Assembly (NCBI GenBank): GCA_947628955.1
Contig: CANRBX010000031.1
Span: forward strand, 1-34,626
Reading direction: 5' to 3'
Source: an uncultured Lachnospiraceae bacterium
Lineage (GTDB): Bacteria; Bacillota; Clostridia; Lachnospirales; Lachnospiraceae
DNA: 34,626 nt
In this document: one piece after another, positions 10,035 to 15,580 of the stretch
Numbering within the stretch: the stretch's first letter is position 1
Layout: every line of letters starts with the position of its first letter
Position numbers and translations under genes: made by a program
Notes under the pieces: model-generated
The model's input: the letters and a program-made list of their open reading frames with translations, nothing else
The model's database searches: none
What the model was told of the DNA's origin: nothing

Positions 10035-11471
10035 ATGAGTAATACAGCACAAAGCTTAGCAGGCAAAAGAATCGCTTCTTTGCTTGACGAGAACAGTTTT
10101 GTTGAAATCGGCGGATACGTGACTGCCAGAAATACTGATTTCAACATGCAGCAGACGGAGACGCCGGGGGACGGCGTGATCACAGGCTATGGCGTGATCG
10201 ACGGACATCTGGTTTACGTTTACAGTCAGGACGCGTCCGTGCTCGGAGGAACCATCGGCGAGATGCATGCGAAGAAGATCACAGGGATCTACGACATGGC
10301 TCTGAAGATGGGAGCTCCGGTGATCGGGCTGCTTGACTGTGCGGGCCTGAGGCTTCAGGAGGCGACGGACGCCCTGAACGCGTTCGGCGAGATCTACAGC
10401 AAACAGGTGCTCGCATCCGGCATTATCCCGCAGATCACGGCGGTGTTCGGCAGATGCGGCGGCGGTCTGGCACTGGTGCCGGCGCTGACGGACTTCACAT
10501 TTATGGAAGGCTCCAAAGCAGAGCTGTTCGTGAACGCACCGAACGCGCTGGACGGCAACGTAAAGGAGAAATGCAACACTGCCTCCGCCCAGTTCCAGAG
10601 CGAGGAAGCCGGACTGGTGGATTTTGTCGGGACTGAGGATGAGATCATGGCTCAGATCCGCGAGCTGGTATGCATGCTTCCGGCGAACAATGAGGATGAT
10701 TCCTCTTATGAGGAGTGCACAGACGACCTGAACCGCACGTGCGAGGATCTTGCGAACGCGGCAGGCGATACGACGATTCTGCTCTCCAATATCGCAGATG
10801 ACAACAATTTCCTGGAGCTGAAGGCTGCTTACGCTCCGGATATGGTGACGGGCTTTATCCGCCTGAACGGCACGACGGTCGGTGTGGTCGCGAACCGCAC
10901 GGAGGCATATGATGAGGAGGGCACGCTTAAGGAGTCCTATGACTGTGCGCTCAGCGCGCGCGGCGCACTGAAGGCCGCGGAGTTCGTGGAGTTCTGCGAC
11001 GCGTTTGAGATCCCGGTGCTCACCCTGACGAATGTTGCGGGCTTCAAGGCGACAAAGTGCTCCGAGAAGCGGATCGCGAAGGCGGCGGCGAAGCTGACTG
11101 CTGCGTTTGCAGGCGCGACGGTTCCGAAGGTGAATGTGATCATCGGCAAGGCATACGGCAGCGCCTACGTGGCCATGAACAGCAAGGCGGTCGGAGCGGA
11201 CGTGACGTTCGCGTGGAGCCAGGCGCAGATCGGCATGATGGACGCGCAGCTTGCGGCGAAGATCATGTACGCGGATGCGGACGCAAAGGTGATCAACGAG
11301 AAGGCCGCGGAGTATGCGACGCTCCAGTCCAGCGCGGCGGCCGCTGCGAAGAGAGGCTATGTGGACAATATCATCGAGGCTGAGGATACCAGAAAATATG
11401 TGATCGGCGCGTTCGAGATGTTATTCACGAAGAGAGATGACCGCCCGGCCAAAAAGCACGGAACAGTTTAA
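10035..11471 (+). CDS. Acyl-CoA-type carboxyltransferase subunit (PccB/MmdA/12S-like)
   Basis: Predicted carboxyltransferase moving a carboxyl group between an acyl-CoA and biotin. The N-terminal half has the family signature GDGVITGYGVIDG followed by LGGTIGEMHAKKI and VLASGIIPQI. The C-terminal half keeps GKAYGSAY and the terminal KKHG motif of PccB/MmdA proteins. It is shorter (478 residues) than usual (about 510) and several normally invariant stretches differ: DCAGLRLQEA replaces DSGGARIQEG, and NVAGFKAT replaces DVPGFLPG. The acyl-CoA substrate is therefore uncertain (methylmalonyl-, malonyl- or glutaconyl-CoA are candidates). GGAGGG at 10022-10027 is the ribosome site. It is first in a five-gene operon with biotin carrier, OadB and OadA. 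Confidence 0.85.
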   Translation: MSNTAQSLAGKRIASLLDENSFVEIGGYVTARNTDFNMQQTETPGDGVITGYGVIDGHLVYVYSQDASVLGGTIGEMHAKKITGIYDMALKMGAPVIGLLDCAGLRLQEATDALNAFGEIYSKQVLASGIIPQITAVFGRCGGGLALVPALTDFTFMEGSKAELFVNAPNALDGNVKEKCNTASAQFQSEEAGLVDFVGTEDEIMAQIRELVCMLPANNEDDSSYEECTDDLNRTCEDLANAAGDTTILLSNIADDNNFLELKAAYAPDMVTGFIRLNGTTVGVVANRTEAYDEEGTLKESYDCALSARGALKAAEFVEFCDAFEIPVLTLTNVAGFKATKCSEKRIAKAAAKLTAAFAGATVPKVNVIIGKAYGSAYVAMNSKAVGADVTFAWSQAQIGMMDAQLAAKIMYADADAKVINEKAAEYATLQSSAAAAAKRGYVDNIIEAEDTRKYVIGAFEMLFTKRDDRPAKKHGTV

Positions 11472-11485
11472 GCGAGGTGAATCAC

Positions 11486-12334
11486 ATGAGGCGTAGATTA
11501 AGTGCGGTTTTGCTTGCCGCAGGACTCGGCCTGTCAGTTTTCTCGATGAATGCATTCGCGGGGGAGACGGAGAGCGAGGCCCTGGAGCAGGCGGTAGATG
11601 AGATGACCCAGGAGGAGACGACTCTCGCGGAGGAAGCGGGCGCTGCGGACGAGCCGCAGACAGAGACCGAGGCCCTCTCGGAGGAGGATCAGCTGAAGGC
11701 CCAGCTCAGCTCCATGCTGTCCCAGATCGGCGCATGGTCCGACGAGCAGATCGAGGCGTATATCAGCGGAAACGACGCTTCCAGCGCAGCGATCGCGTCG
11801 AACTGGAAGGCAGTCAGAGACGAGCTCGGCGCTTTTGTGGAAGTGACCAGCGCCGAGATGGAGGTGTCTGACGAGGAATTTGCGATCGTCGGGCACGCGA
11901 AGTATGACAAGCTGAACGATAATACGGATGTAACCGTCACGTACAAGGCGGATATGACGACGCAGGCGGTCACCCTGAACTGGGAAGTGGATTACCCGCT
12001 CGGGATCCTGATGCAGCGCGCGGCGCTGAATACGGTGATGGGTCTCGGGATCGTGTTTGTGACGCTGCTCTTCCTGAGCTGGCTGATCGGGAAGCTCCAC
12101 TATATCCCGGAGATGATCGAGAAGGCGGGAAAGAAGGACGAGCCTGCGGCTGTTCCGGTGCCCGCTGCTGCCCCGGTTGCTGTGGCTGCCCCGGCTGAGG
12201 AGGATCTCACGGACGACCTGGAGCTGGTGGCTGTCATCACGGCGGCGATCGCGGCATCCGGTACGACGTCCGGAGACGGATTTGTAGTGCGTTCCATCAA
12301 AAAGGCAAATAAAAAGAACTGGCAGAAAGCCTGA
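11486..12334 (+). CDS. OadG-like Na+ pump decarboxylase subunit with large extracytoplasmic domain
   Basis: Probable gamma/delta-type membrane subunit of the Na+-translocating decarboxylase encoded by this operon. A signal peptide (MRRRLSAVLLAAGLGLSVFS, cleavage near A25) precedes an acidic domain of about 155 residues predicted to be outside the membrane. One transmembrane helix follows (about 184-205), then a Pro/Ala-rich linker and a cytoplasmic end containing LVAVITAAIAAS, a segment typical of OadG/MmdD-type subunits. At 282 residues it is far longer than classical OadG (about 80). The ATG at 11486 is chosen because GCGAGG sits 8-9 bases upstream; an in-frame GTG at 11477 overlaps that site. 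It lies 14 bases after the carboxyltransferase gene. Confidence 0.75.
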   Translation: MRRRLSAVLLAAGLGLSVFSMNAFAGETESEALEQAVDEMTQEETTLAEEAGAADEPQTETEALSEEDQLKAQLSSMLSQIGAWSDEQIEAYISGNDASSAAIASNWKAVRDELGAFVEVTSAEMEVSDEEFAIVGHAKYDKLNDNTDVTVTYKADMTTQAVTLNWEVDYPLGILMQRAALNTVMGLGIVFVTLLFLSWLIGKLHYIPEMIEKAGKKDEPAAVPVPAAAPVAVAAPAEEDLTDDLELVAVITAAIAASGTTSGDGFVVRSIKKANKKNWQKA

Positions 12335-12358
12335 CAAATATTTTAGGAGGAAATATTC

Positions 12359-12730
12359 ATGAAAACTTATACGATTACAGTAAACGGCAATGTATACGAT
12401 GTGACAGTAGAAGAGGGAACAGGCTCCGCGGCTCCGGCTCCTGCCAGAAAGGCAGCTCCGAAGGCGGCACCGAAGGCAGCTGCGGCCCCGGCGGCACCTG
12501 CGGCAGGCGGCGCGGGCGCAGTGAAGGTGACGGCTTCCGTACCGGGCAAGGTATTCAAGGTGGAGGCGAGCGCAGGCCAGGCAGTGAAGGCCGGCGACAA
12601 TATCGTGATCCTTGAGGCAATGAAGATGGAGATCCCGGTTGTCGCTCCGCAGGACGGCACGGTGGCAAGCATCGACGTAACCGTAGGTCAGGCAATCGAG
12701 TCCGGGGATGTCCTCGCGACCATGAACTAG
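12359..12730 (+). CDS. Biotin carboxyl carrier protein of the decarboxylase (GcdC/MmdC/1.3S-like)
   Basis: Carries the carboxyl group on biotin between the carboxyltransferases and OadB. It has 123 residues: an N-terminal beta segment, an Ala/Pro/Lys-rich flexible linker (about 22-54) and a C-terminal biotinyl domain with EAMKM (86-90), K89 being the biotinylated lysine. AGGAGG (12345-12350) lies 8 bases upstream of the ATG. Size and linker match the free carrier subunits of glutaconyl- and methylmalonyl-CoA decarboxylases and the 1.3S transcarboxylase subunit. Confidence 0.95.
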   Translation: MKTYTITVNGNVYDVTVEEGTGSAAPAPARKAAPKAAPKAAAAPAAPAAGGAGAVKVTASVPGKVFKVEASAGQAVKAGDNIVILEAMKMEIPVVAPQDGTVASIDVTVGQAIESGDVLATMN

Positions 12731-12768
12731 GAGGCGGCATCCCTCCGGCATCACGGGAGTGCGGTACG

Positions 12769-12792
12769 CAGTTCCCGGCGATGACGGAACTG
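12769..12792 (+). other. Intercistronic hairpin before oadB
   Basis: CAGTTCC (12769-12775) and GGAACTG (12786-12792) form a perfect 7-bp stem in the 108-base gap between the biotin carrier and oadB. There is no T run, so it is more likely an mRNA processing or stability element than a terminator. Confidence 0.45.
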
Positions 12793-12838
12793 TCTGCTGA
12801 CAGACATTGTCTGAGAATACGAACTGGGAGGTAAAAAA

Positions 12839-13996
12839 ATGTCTTACATTACAAATACATTGTCCAATTTACTGGATCAGACGGCATTCCTGAATCTGAC
12901 GGTGGGCAACTACGTCATGATCGCGGTGGCCTGTGTGTTCCTGTATCTGGCAATCAAGCATGGATTTGAGCCTCTGCTTCTCGTACCGATCGCGTTCGGC
13001 ATGCTGCTTGTAAATATCTACCCGGATATCATGGCGCAGCCGTATACGGATGTGAACGGCATCGAGCATGCGGGCGGCCTGCTTCATTATTTCTACCTGA
13101 TGGACGAGTGGAGTATCCTTCCGTCTCTGATCTTCATGGGCGTCGGCGCGATGACGGACTTCGGTCCGCTGATCGCGAACCCGAAGAGCTTCCTGCTCGG
13201 CGCGGCGGCGCAGCTCGGTATCTATATGGCGTACTTCCTGGCGATCTTCATGGGATTCAACGGCAAGGCGGCCGCGGCCATCTCCATCATCGGCGGCGCG
13301 GACGGCCCGACCTCGATCTTCCTGGCAGGTAAGCTGAGCCAGACGGATCTGATGGGCCCGATCGCTGTGGCGGCATACTCTTACATGTCGCTGGTTCCGA
13401 TCATCCAGCCTCCGATCATGAAGCTTCTGACGACAGAGGAAGAGCGCAAGATCAAGATGGAGCAGCTCCGCCCGGTATCCAAGCTGGAGAAGATCCTGTT
13501 CCCGATCATCATCACGATCGTTGTCTGCATGCTTCTTCCGTCCACGGCTCCGCTTGTCGGCATGCTGATGCTCGGCAACCTGTTCCGCGAGAGCGGCGTG
13601 GTGAGACAGCTGACAGAGACGGCCAGCAACGCGATGATGTATATCGTCGTTATCCTGCTCGGCACATCTGTAGGCGCTACGACGAGCGCGGAAGCATTCC
13701 TGAACCTGGATACGATCAAGATCGTGATCCTCGGCCTGGTGGCGTTTGCGTTTGGTACGGCAGGCGGCGTCCTGTTCGGCAAGCTGATGTGCAAGGCGTC
13801 CGGCGGCAAGATCAATCCGCTGATCGGCTCTGCAGGCGTATCCGCGGTGCCGATGGCTGCCCGCGTATCGCAGAAGGTCGGCGCCGAGGCGGATCCCACG
13901 AACTTCCTGCTGATGCACGCGATGGGTCCGAACGTGGCAGGCGTTATCGGTACGGCAGTTGCAGCCGGCACGTTTATGGCCATATTCGGGGTATAG
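12839..13996 (+). CDS. oadB: Na+-translocating decarboxylase beta subunit
   Basis: Integral membrane pump that decarboxylates carboxybiotin and exports Na+. The 385-residue product is a string of hydrophobic helices. The family hallmark GGADGPTSIF has D155 as the predicted Na+/proton-coupling aspartate, and the C-terminal NPLIGSAGVSAVPMAARV segment is conserved. A GGGAGG ribosome site lies at about 12826-12831. The same subunit type serves oxaloacetate, methylmalonyl-CoA and glutaconyl-CoA decarboxylases, so it does not fix the substrate. The downstream gap of 101 bases holds a small CAGGC-gat-GCCTG hairpin (14024-14036). Confidence 0.95.
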   Translation: MSYITNTLSNLLDQTAFLNLTVGNYVMIAVACVFLYLAIKHGFEPLLLVPIAFGMLLVNIYPDIMAQPYTDVNGIEHAGGLLHYFYLMDEWSILPSLIFMGVGAMTDFGPLIANPKSFLLGAAAQLGIYMAYFLAIFMGFNGKAAAAISIIGGADGPTSIFLAGKLSQTDLMGPIAVAAYSYMSLVPIIQPPIMKLLTTEEERKIKMEQLRPVSKLEKILFPIIITIVVCMLLPSTAPLVGMLMLGNLFRESGVVRQLTETASNAMMYIVVILLGTSVGATTSAEAFLNLDTIKIVILGLVAFAFGTAGGVLFGKLMCKASGGKINPLIGSAGVSAVPMAARVSQKVGAEADPTNFLLMHAMGPNVAGVIGTAVAAGTFMAIFGV

Positions 13997-14097
13997 GCCG
14001 AAAGCACTTCGCGAAAGCGGCCGCAGGCGATGCCTGAGCATTGTCAGGGGCGGCAGCGCGAAATATTTGCATATATAGAATTGATAGGAGGAGCAAA

Positions 14098-15510
14098 ATG
14101 GCTGAACAAGCAAAAAAACCGATTAAAATTACTGAGACGATCCTTCGTGACGCGCATCAGTCACTGATCGCTACCAGAATGTCAACCGAGCAGATGCTGC
14201 CGATCATTGATAAACTGGATAAAGTTGGCTATCATTCCGTAGAGTGCTGGGGCGGCGCTACGTTCGACGCATCTCTGCGCTTCCTGAAGGAAGACCCGTG
14301 GGACAGACTGCGCAAGATCCGCGACGGCTTCAAGCACACGAAGCTGCAGATGCTGTTCCGCGGCCAGAATATTCTCGGCTACCGTCCGTATGCAGACGAC
14401 GTGGTCGAGTATTTCGTACAGAAGTCTGTGGCGAACGGCATCGACATCATCCGTATCTTCGACTGCCTGAATGATATCCGCAACCTGCAGACCGCGGTTA
14501 CGGCAGCAAATAAGGAGAAGGCGCATGCGCAGGTGGCAATGTCCTACACGCTGGGCGACGCGTACACGATGGAGTACTGGGTAGACCTGGCAAAGAGGAT
14601 CGAGGACATGGGCGCAAACTCCATCTGCATCAAGGATATGGCCGGCCTGCTCGTTCCGTACAAGGCGACCGAGCTCGTGACCGCGCTGAAGGAAGCGGTC
14701 TCGCTCCCGATCCAGCTGCACACGCACTATACGTCCGGCGTCGCCTCCATGACGTACCTGAAGGCGGTCGAGGCAGGCGTGGACGTGATCGACACGGCAA
14801 TGTCTCCGTTTGCGCTCGGCACATCGCAGCCGGCGACCGAGGTTATGGTGGAGACCTTCCGCGGCACACCGTACGACACCGGGTTCGATTCCAAGCTGCT
14901 CGACGAGATCGCGGACTATTTCCGCCCGATGCGCGACGACGCGCTCGCAAGCGGACTGCTCAACCCGAAGAATATGGGCGTCAACATCAAGACGCTGCTG
15001 TACCAGGTGCCGGGCGGAATGCTGTCCAACCTGACCTCACAGCTGAAGGATATGCACGCGGAAGACAAGTACTACGATGTGCTTGAGGAAGTTCCGAGGG
15101 TGAGAAAAGACCTCGGCGAGCCGCCTCTCGTGACGCCGTCGTCCCAGATCGTCGGAACACAGGCGGTTATGAACGTGATCCAGGGCGAGCGCTACAAGAT
15201 GGTGACGAAGGAGACGAAGGATATCCTGAGCGGCAAGTACGGCGCTACGGTAAATCCGTTCAACCCGGAGGTCCAGAAGAAGTGCATCGGCGACGCGGAA
15301 GTGATCACCTGCCGTCCGGCAGACCTGATCCCGGATGAGCTCGACACGCTGCGCGGCGAGATGGCCCAGTGGTCCGAGCAGGAGGAGGACGTTCTGTCCT
15401 ATGCCCTGTTCCCGCAGGTTGCGACCGAGTTCTTCAAATACCGTCAGGCACAGGAGAAGAAGGTGGATCCGACCGTTGCAGACAATGCGAACAAGGCGTA
15501 TCCGGTATAG
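14098..15510 (+). CDS. oadA: Oxaloacetate decarboxylase alpha / transcarboxylase 5S-like carboxyltransferase
   Basis: Transfers the carboxyl group between oxaloacetate (or pyruvate) and biotin, using a TIM-barrel metal site. The N-terminal ETILRDAHQSL supplies the metal aspartate (D18). CIKDMAGLL supplies the lysine (K179) that is carbamylated in the family, and LHTHYTSG supplies the metal histidines (H208, H210). At 470 residues it ends without a biotinyl domain, unlike full-length OadA (about 590), so it must use the separate carrier encoded upstream. The frame is open from 14041; the ATG at 14098 has GGAGGAG immediately upstream. It is the last gene before a hairpin terminator. Confidence 0.93.
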   Translation: MAEQAKKPIKITETILRDAHQSLIATRMSTEQMLPIIDKLDKVGYHSVECWGGATFDASLRFLKEDPWDRLRKIRDGFKHTKLQMLFRGQNILGYRPYADDVVEYFVQKSVANGIDIIRIFDCLNDIRNLQTAVTAANKEKAHAQVAMSYTLGDAYTMEYWVDLAKRIEDMGANSICIKDMAGLLVPYKATELVTALKEAVSLPIQLHTHYTSGVASMTYLKAVEAGVDVIDTAMSPFALGTSQPATEVMVETFRGTPYDTGFDSKLLDEIADYFRPMRDDALASGLLNPKNMGVNIKTLLYQVPGGMLSNLTSQLKDMHAEDKYYDVLEEVPRVRKDLGEPPLVTPSSQIVGTQAVMNVIQGERYKMVTKETKDILSGKYGATVNPFNPEVQKKCIGDAEVITCRPADLIPDELDTLRGEMAQWSEQEEDVLSYALFPQVATEFFKYRQAQEKKVDPTVADNANKAYPV

Positions 15511-15550
15511 GGTCTGCGAGGGTTCACTAAAATAATATCAGCATTTGGCG

Positions 15551-15580
15551 AGCGCCCCGGCAGCATGCGGGGCGCTTGTT
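15551..15580 (+). terminator. Terminator of the decarboxylase operon
   Basis: AGCGCCCC (15551-15558) pairs with GGGGCGCT (15569-15576) over a 10-base loop. The following tract TTGTTT is short. It lies about 40 bases after the oadA stop. Confidence 0.72.

Follow-up and report, generated by a model that had tools for sequence, protein, structure and literature searches.

A probable Na+-translocating oxaloacetate decarboxylase operon carrying a diverged 12S-like carboxyltransferase subunit is common in Lachnospiraceae

Five genes and their assignment

Contig CANRBX010000031.1 of an uncultured Lachnospiraceae bacterium (assembly GCA_947628955.1; 3.5 Mb, 94% complete, 6% contaminated) contains, at positions 10035-15510 on the + strand, an operon of five genes in the order 12S-OadG-carrier-OadB-5S. 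The whole stretch analysed, hereafter the window, is this one entire contig of 34,626 nucleotides. The combined data indicate that the core of the operon is probably a Na+-translocating oxaloacetate decarboxylase, to which a subunit resembling the 12S carboxyltransferase of transcarboxylase (the 12S-like protein) was recruited later. The features of the locus are as follows.

10035..11471, + strand: 12S/MmdA/PccB-like carboxyltransferase-fold protein of a divergent Lachnospiraceae lineage, 478 amino acids (aa) (PF01039, PDB relatives, model)
10335..10364, + strand: N-domain motif DCAGLRLQEA of the 12S-like protein; mostly DSGGARIQEG in other carboxyltransferases (alignment)
10449..10469, + strand: N-domain glycine motif GRCGGGL, with the GG pair retained; GPCAGGA in other carboxyltransferases (alignment)
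11145..11171, + strand: C-domain motif GKAYGSAYV; RKAYGGAY[LIV] in other carboxyltransferases (alignment)
11486..12334, + strand: OadG gamma subunit, comprising a putative DUF3887/NTF2-like domain, a long membrane-spanning-looking helix and a tail (PF04277, TIGR01195)
12359..12730, + strand: biotin carboxyl carrier protein, MmdC/1.3S-like, 123 aa (Pfam, NCBIfam, PDB relatives)
12614..12628, + strand: biotinylation motif EAMKM of the carrier (motif search)
12839..13996, + strand: OadB, Na+-translocating carboxybiotin decarboxylase beta subunit, 385 aa (PF03977, TIGR01109, 6iva)
14098..15510, + strand: 5S/OadA carboxyltransferase alpha subunit without a biotin domain, 470 aa (NF008985, 1rqb, 2nx9, motifs)
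15547..15580, + strand: hairpin of 13 bp 3' of the operon, a possible terminator (absent from the consensus-scan list)

A first-pass annotation, made from the DNA letters alone, had named these five genes and had placed two carboxyltransferase-type proteins, one biotin carrier and one pump in a single operon. Pfam, NCBIfam, PDB relatives and motifs all agreed with it. Pfam matched the 12S-like protein to Carboxyl_trans PF01039 (E 1e-105), OadG to OAD_gamma PF04277 (E 3.2e-18), the carrier to Biotin_lipoyl (E 1.3e-16), OadB to OAD_beta PF03977 (E 1e-155), and 5S to HMGL-like (E 2.7e-19) and PYC_OADA (E 1.7e-54). A stretch resembling a ribosome-binding site precedes the ATG of each gene; together with homologues, these stretches suggest that ATG 11486 is better placed as the start of OadG than GTG 11477, and ATG 14098 as the start of 5S than TTG 14041. 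A consensus scan of the + strand over the 220 bases upstream of the first gene found no promoter-like site. When four close pairs were compared, the ratio of nonsynonymous to synonymous substitution rates (dN/dS) pointed to purifying selection on all five genes, at 0.02-0.08 with OadG at 0.14-0.24; OadB and 5S gave 0.019-0.030, and the 12S-like gene, at 0.049-0.061, about twice that. Because dN/dS is well below 1 in all five genes and gene order is conserved, a chance operon was excluded.

Every feature sought for a Na+-translocating oxaloacetate decarboxylase was found, namely the OadA-type carboxyltransferase motifs, OadB, the biotinylation lysine and OadG. The 5S protein scored above the cut-off of the OadA equivalog NF008985 (755.1 vs 718 bits) and under that of the longer TIGR01108 (667.5 vs 756.5 bits), a model that includes a biotin domain absent from 5S. 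It aligned over most of its length with 1rqb (transcarboxylase 5S) and 2nx9 (OadA), and its motifs RDAHQS, IKDMAG and HTHYTSG, which have a metal-site role, are all intact. OadB exceeded the TIGR01109 cut-off (480.4 vs 190.6 bits), aligned to the OadB structure 6iva and carries a GGADGPT motif at 13292-13312. OadG was above the TIGR01195 cut-off (41.1 vs 36.05 bits), and its start, judged by eye, is signal-peptide-like. By its intact motifs and known relatives, 5S/OadA would move a carboxyl group from oxaloacetate to the biotin of the free carrier, and OadB would release it as CO2 while exporting Na+; OadG, with its outside DUF3887-like domain, may hold the parts together and perhaps sense a ligand.

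The 12S-like protein has a predicted carboxyltransferase fold and changed motifs

The first gene had been called an acyl-CoA-type carboxyltransferase. Its carboxyltransferase family and predicted fold bear out that call, but its conserved motifs are altered. PDB relatives of the protein include 3n6r_B, 1vrg and 1on3. Its AlphaFold2 model had a mean predicted local distance difference test score of 80.8 and was weak at both ends and at 28-44, 219-225 and 384-386; in a Foldseek search the ten best matches, all beta subunits of propionyl- or acetyl-CoA carboxylase (PCC/ACC) or 12S, gave template-modelling (TM) scores (query) of 0.82-0.87, and the 1on3 chains gave 0.85-0.86, so that the predicted model has the 12S fold.

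For comparison, a canonical set of 43 carboxyltransferases was assembled, 41 of them from OadB neighbourhoods and 2 being paralogues of the source genome, all themselves uncharacterised. The motifs conserved in 12S/MmdA/PccB-type carboxyltransferases were not preserved in the 12S-like protein. Telling against an ordinary acyl-CoA enzyme, just 82 of the 183 canonical columns (at least 90% conserved) are kept at 90% or more in 105 family sequences, and the changes include R371G, G376S, H350A and P339A/G340T. The window's VAGFKATKCSE-KRIAKAAAK, for example, corresponds to TPGYLPGVAQEHGGIIRHGAK in locus L158. With 82 of 183 columns kept, acyl-CoA carboxyl transfer by the 12S-like protein cannot be taken for granted. 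A literature search found no published carboxyltransferase active-site study of use, and because of this no role was assigned to single residues.

The divergence sets the lineage apart as a whole. Against a profile made from 80 family sequences, the best canonical carboxyltransferase scored 516 bits and the lowest family member 734; among 299 genomes of the phylum, the best match outside the family reached 498 bits, compared with 785-921 in the family, of whose four sampled members three matched. In a quick tree, 14 family 12S rows split from all 43 canonical carboxyltransferases with a support of 100; long branches meet there, which limits what the tree says on the nearest relative of the lineage. 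Two more PccB/MmdA-like carboxyltransferases are encoded in the source genome (G000) at C4:55325-56758 (L150) and C3:49249-50652 (L151); their neighbours, judged by eye, resemble genes of fatty-acid or polyketide-type synthesis, and the family profile found no biotin carrier within the 15 kb taken around either.

Sixty-two columns, including G143, G144 and G375, are fixed both in the family and in the canonical carboxyltransferases, and 20 further positions are fixed in the family (at least 95%) and rare in other carboxyltransferases (at most 10%). Together with the purifying selection on the gene, these shared and newly fixed columns are as expected for a protein whose function was changed rather than lost. 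In one rival explanation the 12S-like protein has lost catalysis altogether; as a scaffold or a sensor of acyl-CoA it would serve to assemble or regulate the decarboxylase, perhaps in concert with the DUF3887 domain on OadG. That fewer than half of the canonical positions are kept at 90%, that dN/dS is roughly double the values for 5S and OadB, and that the gene was probably added to a complete pump (see below) are consistent with such a role; the 62 columns fixed in both groups are not easily fitted to it, and the 20 new fixed residues with a dN/dS of about 0.05 would fit a new activity equally. A pseudogene reading of the window's gene was ruled out by its open frame and the same dN/dS; in one genome of the genus (G012), a stop lies inside the 12S-like gene.

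The operon is widespread in the family

The closest named matches of the 12S-like protein, all from Lachnospiraceae, were rabbit-gut metagenome-assembled genomes (93-94% identity) and a Parablautia sp. (90%). Within the genus, 44 of 47 genomes matched the protein (E <= 0.001), and in 43 the identity was at least 82%. Across the family a match was obtained in 275 of 299 genomes: 248 at E <= 1e-130, 10 between 1e-130 and 1e-70, and 17 weaker; two of the intermediate matches (G047 and G144) turned out to be family-type 12S-like genes cut by contig ends. When 100 family genomes (G000, G047-G145) were counted with presence defined as E < 1e-70, the 12S-like gene was present in 83; of these, 82 also had an OadB above the cut-off, and a PYC_OADA match was found in 80; the misses were G075 (no OadB, no 5S) and G088 and G110 (no 5S), the OadB of G110 ending at a contig edge. 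OadB was present in 6 of the 17 genomes without the 12S-like gene.

A survey of gene neighbourhoods, which the first-pass annotation had proposed as a check, confirmed that the five genes stand together in all 48 12S-bearing family loci with full flank (5 kb or more to either side of OadB). The order 12S-OadG-carrier-OadB-5S was kept in 80 named loci as far as their contigs reach, with OadG lacking a tblastn match in one (L085); these loci were selected by 12S and so show that 5S accompanies 12S rather than how frequent the operon is. The five-gene operon is common in the family and no oddity of the source genome. Common neighbours of the operon, named by eye from sequence starts, are housekeeping-like genes. 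In two Diplocloster loci (L065:7102-8874 and L066:7022-8794), a 591-aa frame just upstream of the 12S-like gene encodes a distant protein resembling phosphoenolpyruvate carboxykinase (PEPCK), identified through a PF01293 match in G061. A contig titled Bacteroidales (L106) also bears the operon, and its position in the tree lies among Lachnospiraceae; it is perhaps mislabelled or from a mixed metagenome-assembled genome.

The pump operon probably preceded the 12S-like gene

OadB was sought in forty family genomes that had a weak 12S match or none; 21 matched, 18 of them over the cut-off, and 20 regions were read. Two (L268 and L271) were 12S-bearing operons cut by contig ends, and some were glutaconyl-CoA-decarboxylase-like clusters or lone OadB-like genes. 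Five lone genes (L267, L274, L276, L277 and L278) scored 348-368 bits to the family profile, with no carrier or carboxyltransferase found nearby. Six family operons with full flank have the order OadG-carrier-OadB-5S without 12S. In a quick tree of OadB plus 5S, all 32 12S-bearing rows fall together with L272 in one clade (support 96), whose sister group (99) consists of the 12S-less operons L273 and L279-L281; the next clade out (L209, L263, L270) is also without 12S, and the 12S-less family operons L262 and L264 group with other families. By this topology, a Na+ oxaloacetate decarboxylase of four genes seems to have existed before the 12S-like subunit joined it, once; gain of the gene by a pre-existing pump operon would be the simplest reading. 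Several points limit the case for a single gain: the tree used 62 of 93 rows and has Shimodaira-Hasegawa-like approximate likelihood ratio test support only; the branch holding the 12S-bearing rows alone has a support of 33, because L272, a locus that its contig end cuts off before a 12S is reached, groups next to them; and the sister clade may instead have lost 12S. The first-pass annotation had described a transcarboxylase to which a pump was added. The soluble subunit types are indeed the same, but the order seems reversed, with the 12S-like gene probably joining an existing pump operon.

The gain would also coincide roughly with a change in OadG. Frames of at least 200 aa were found in 63 of 69 12S-bearing operons versus 2 of 70 others, and the four 12S-less operons L273 and L279-L281 have short OadG frames of 117-150 aa. 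The OadG ectodomain matched a DUF3887/NTF2-like domain with a middling Z, a fold match that says nothing on function. Fusion of DUF3887-type domains with OAD gamma, the same fusion as is predicted here, has been described already, with the proposal that Na+ flux is regulated by a ligand that the domain senses (PMC3924330; like the other papers cited by PMC number, represented here by part of its text), and the part consulted contains no link to a 12S-like protein. Association with the long OadG, whose domain has thus been proposed as a ligand sensor, would suit a scaffold or sensor role of the 12S-like protein. Such a role is disfavoured by the short OadG of 6 of the 69 12S-bearing operons, which means that the DUF3887 domain is dispensable; the same six operons also count against our main reading, the pump with a recruited subunit. 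One locus (L266, in G267) holds a family-type OadG (272-aa frame), carrier and OadB, with neither carboxyltransferase found within the 19 kb taken.

Outside the family, OadB was searched in 398 genomes of the phylum, 234 of which had a match, and 80 neighbourhoods were taken from the strongest listed, mostly one or two per family. Among the 62 non-family OadB places with full flank, 32 had 12S only, 15 had 5S only, 2 had both (L158 and L171) and 13 had neither, canonical carboxyltransferases below 150 bits to the family profile (e.g. the glutaconyl-CoA type) being counted as no 12S. The earlier statement that known Na+ decarboxylases use one carboxyltransferase therefore describes most sampled non-family operons, which hold at most one type, but not L158 and L171; outside the family, an OadB operon with two carboxyltransferases is rare but does exist.

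Metabolic context and the role of the second carboxyltransferase

A methylmalonyl-CoA mutase match was found in none of 60 family genomes, the source genome included, compared with 8 of 14 in the control set. This bears on the reading of the operon as a methylmalonyl-CoA decarboxylase or as the propionyl-CoA transcarboxylase of a succinate-propionate pathway. Of the named NCBIfam models, MmdA gives the 12S-like protein its highest score, but at 421.1 bits this lies far below the cut-off of 998.8, and the MmdC and MmdD models were likewise under their cut-offs for operon proteins; we regard this reading as highly improbable, and the methylmalonyl-CoA pathway was set aside on the missing mutase. 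Replacement of acetyl-CoA carboxylase (ACC) was also set aside, as accA was over its cut-off in 38 of the 60 genomes, the source genome included; in genomes where accA is missing, such a replacement may still occur.

A PEPCK_ATP match was found in 56 of the 60 genomes, about 40 of them clear and 15 a distant PEPCK-like protein only. Given PEPCK in the family, the likely main use of the operon is that PEPCK makes oxaloacetate from phosphoenolpyruvate (PEP) and the pump converts it to pyruvate with Na+ export. The opposite direction, in which Na+ influx would drive carboxylation of biotin and then of pyruvate (and of a 12S substrate) in place of pyruvate carboxylase, draws on the rarity of PYC_OADA matches of pyruvate-carboxylase size (full profile), which occurred in 6 of 100 family genomes (G067, G070, G071, G096, G127 and G137; one of the six broken in two). 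Three of the six were among the 12 genomes without OadB over the cut-off (Fisher p 0.02, from small numbers and an unplanned test), and the only PYC_OADA match of the source genome is the operon's 5S. PEPCK is itself able to supply oxaloacetate, and oxaloacetate decarboxylation has been called irreversible, at about -34 kJ/mol (PMC8100219); we consider the reverse direction unlikely.

Our preferred reading, a Na+ oxaloacetate decarboxylase with a later-recruited subunit, leaves several roles for that subunit. The pump would have recruited one 12S/MmdA-type carboxyltransferase; the simplest scenario is a single event early in the family, near the point where the DUF3887 version of OadG arose. 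Still carboxyltransferase-folded, it probably docks on the same carrier, and would work with another acceptor or in another mode than in methylmalonyl-CoA decarboxylase. An active second carboxyltransferase is a serious possibility, to which we give slightly less than even credence; a non-catalytic regulator or scaffold that binds acyl-CoA is a tentative candidate. Equally tentative is a two-substrate Na+ machine, in which a neofunctionalised 12S-like carboxyltransferase would have its own acceptor, and a single carrier and pump would link the Na+ gradient to oxaloacetate and to this acceptor across the majority of a large gut family. A Na+-coupled transcarboxylase, with both carboxyltransferases active, the carboxyl group moving between oxaloacetate and acyl-CoA through one carrier and the pump making or using the Na+ gradient, concerns the role of 12S and is compatible with the pump core. 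The soluble subunit set of the propionibacterial enzyme, the near-constant company of 5S, the selection on the 12S-like gene and the proposal of a transcarboxylase for a like cluster (PMC7764203) argue for it; the divergence from 43 related carboxyltransferases, the missing mutase and the presence of accA, by which malonyl-CoA in the source genome need not come from the operon, argue against it, and we hold it possible without favouring it. Further points count against the preferred reading. The 12S-like protein could have lost catalysis, and a literature search found no biochemistry on any member of the operon lineage. In addition, the 56-kDa Cthe_0699 of C. thermocellum, likened here by description and not by sequence, ran on a native gel at ~220 kDa and >880 kDa with other ACC subunits undetected (PMC3039559).

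Relation to known systems and significance

Na+-translocating oxaloacetate decarboxylase shares with the operon 5S/OadA, the biotin carrier, OadB and OadG with intact motifs; the operon differs in its added 12S-like gene and in the DUF3887-like domain on OadG. A split OadA/OadD form is known from the oxaloacetate decarboxylase of Enterococcus. The transcarboxylase of Propionibacterium (12S + 5S + 1.3S) agrees with the operon in its three types of soluble subunit (1on3, 1rqb and 1dcz were among the matches), whereas the operon has OadB and OadG, diverged 12S-like motifs and a family setting without a mutase match. Methylmalonyl-CoA decarboxylase MmdABCD likewise combines a carboxyltransferase, an OadG-like protein, a carrier and OadB, and differs in that the operon has 5S and its proteins fall under the MmdA, MmdC and MmdD cut-offs. 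The Na+-pumping decarboxylases listed in PMC8100219 act on oxaloacetate, methylmalonyl-CoA, glutaconyl-CoA and malonate. Among clostridia, Cthe_0699-0701 (12S-carrier-5S) has been printed as an oxaloacetate decarboxylase (PMC3561251), and a 12S-, 1.3S- and 5S-like cluster of strain BL-4 (CLOSBL4_v1_1895-1897) as a possible transcarboxylase (PMC7764203); these clusters, likened by description and not by sequence, come without mention of OadB in the parts of the texts consulted. All 62 draft genomes of butyrivibrios in one study were predicted to encode oxaloacetate decarboxylase (PMC4478896), again with no mention of a 12S-like gene in the part consulted. No publication on the five-gene operon was found by title or abstract opening in a search that left most subscription journals outside. 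What is new is a diverged carboxyltransferase-like subunit that is kept in most of the family, was probably recruited once and is associated with the DUF3887-type OadG.

The 12S-like gene is present in at least 248 of 299 sampled Lachnospiraceae, a family prominent among gut and rumen fermenters. Its strongly selected, carboxyltransferase-like product with altered conserved motifs makes the substrate of this protein a clear gap to fill, and the operon would put Na+ energetics at the PEP-pyruvate-oxaloacetate node of Lachnospiraceae.

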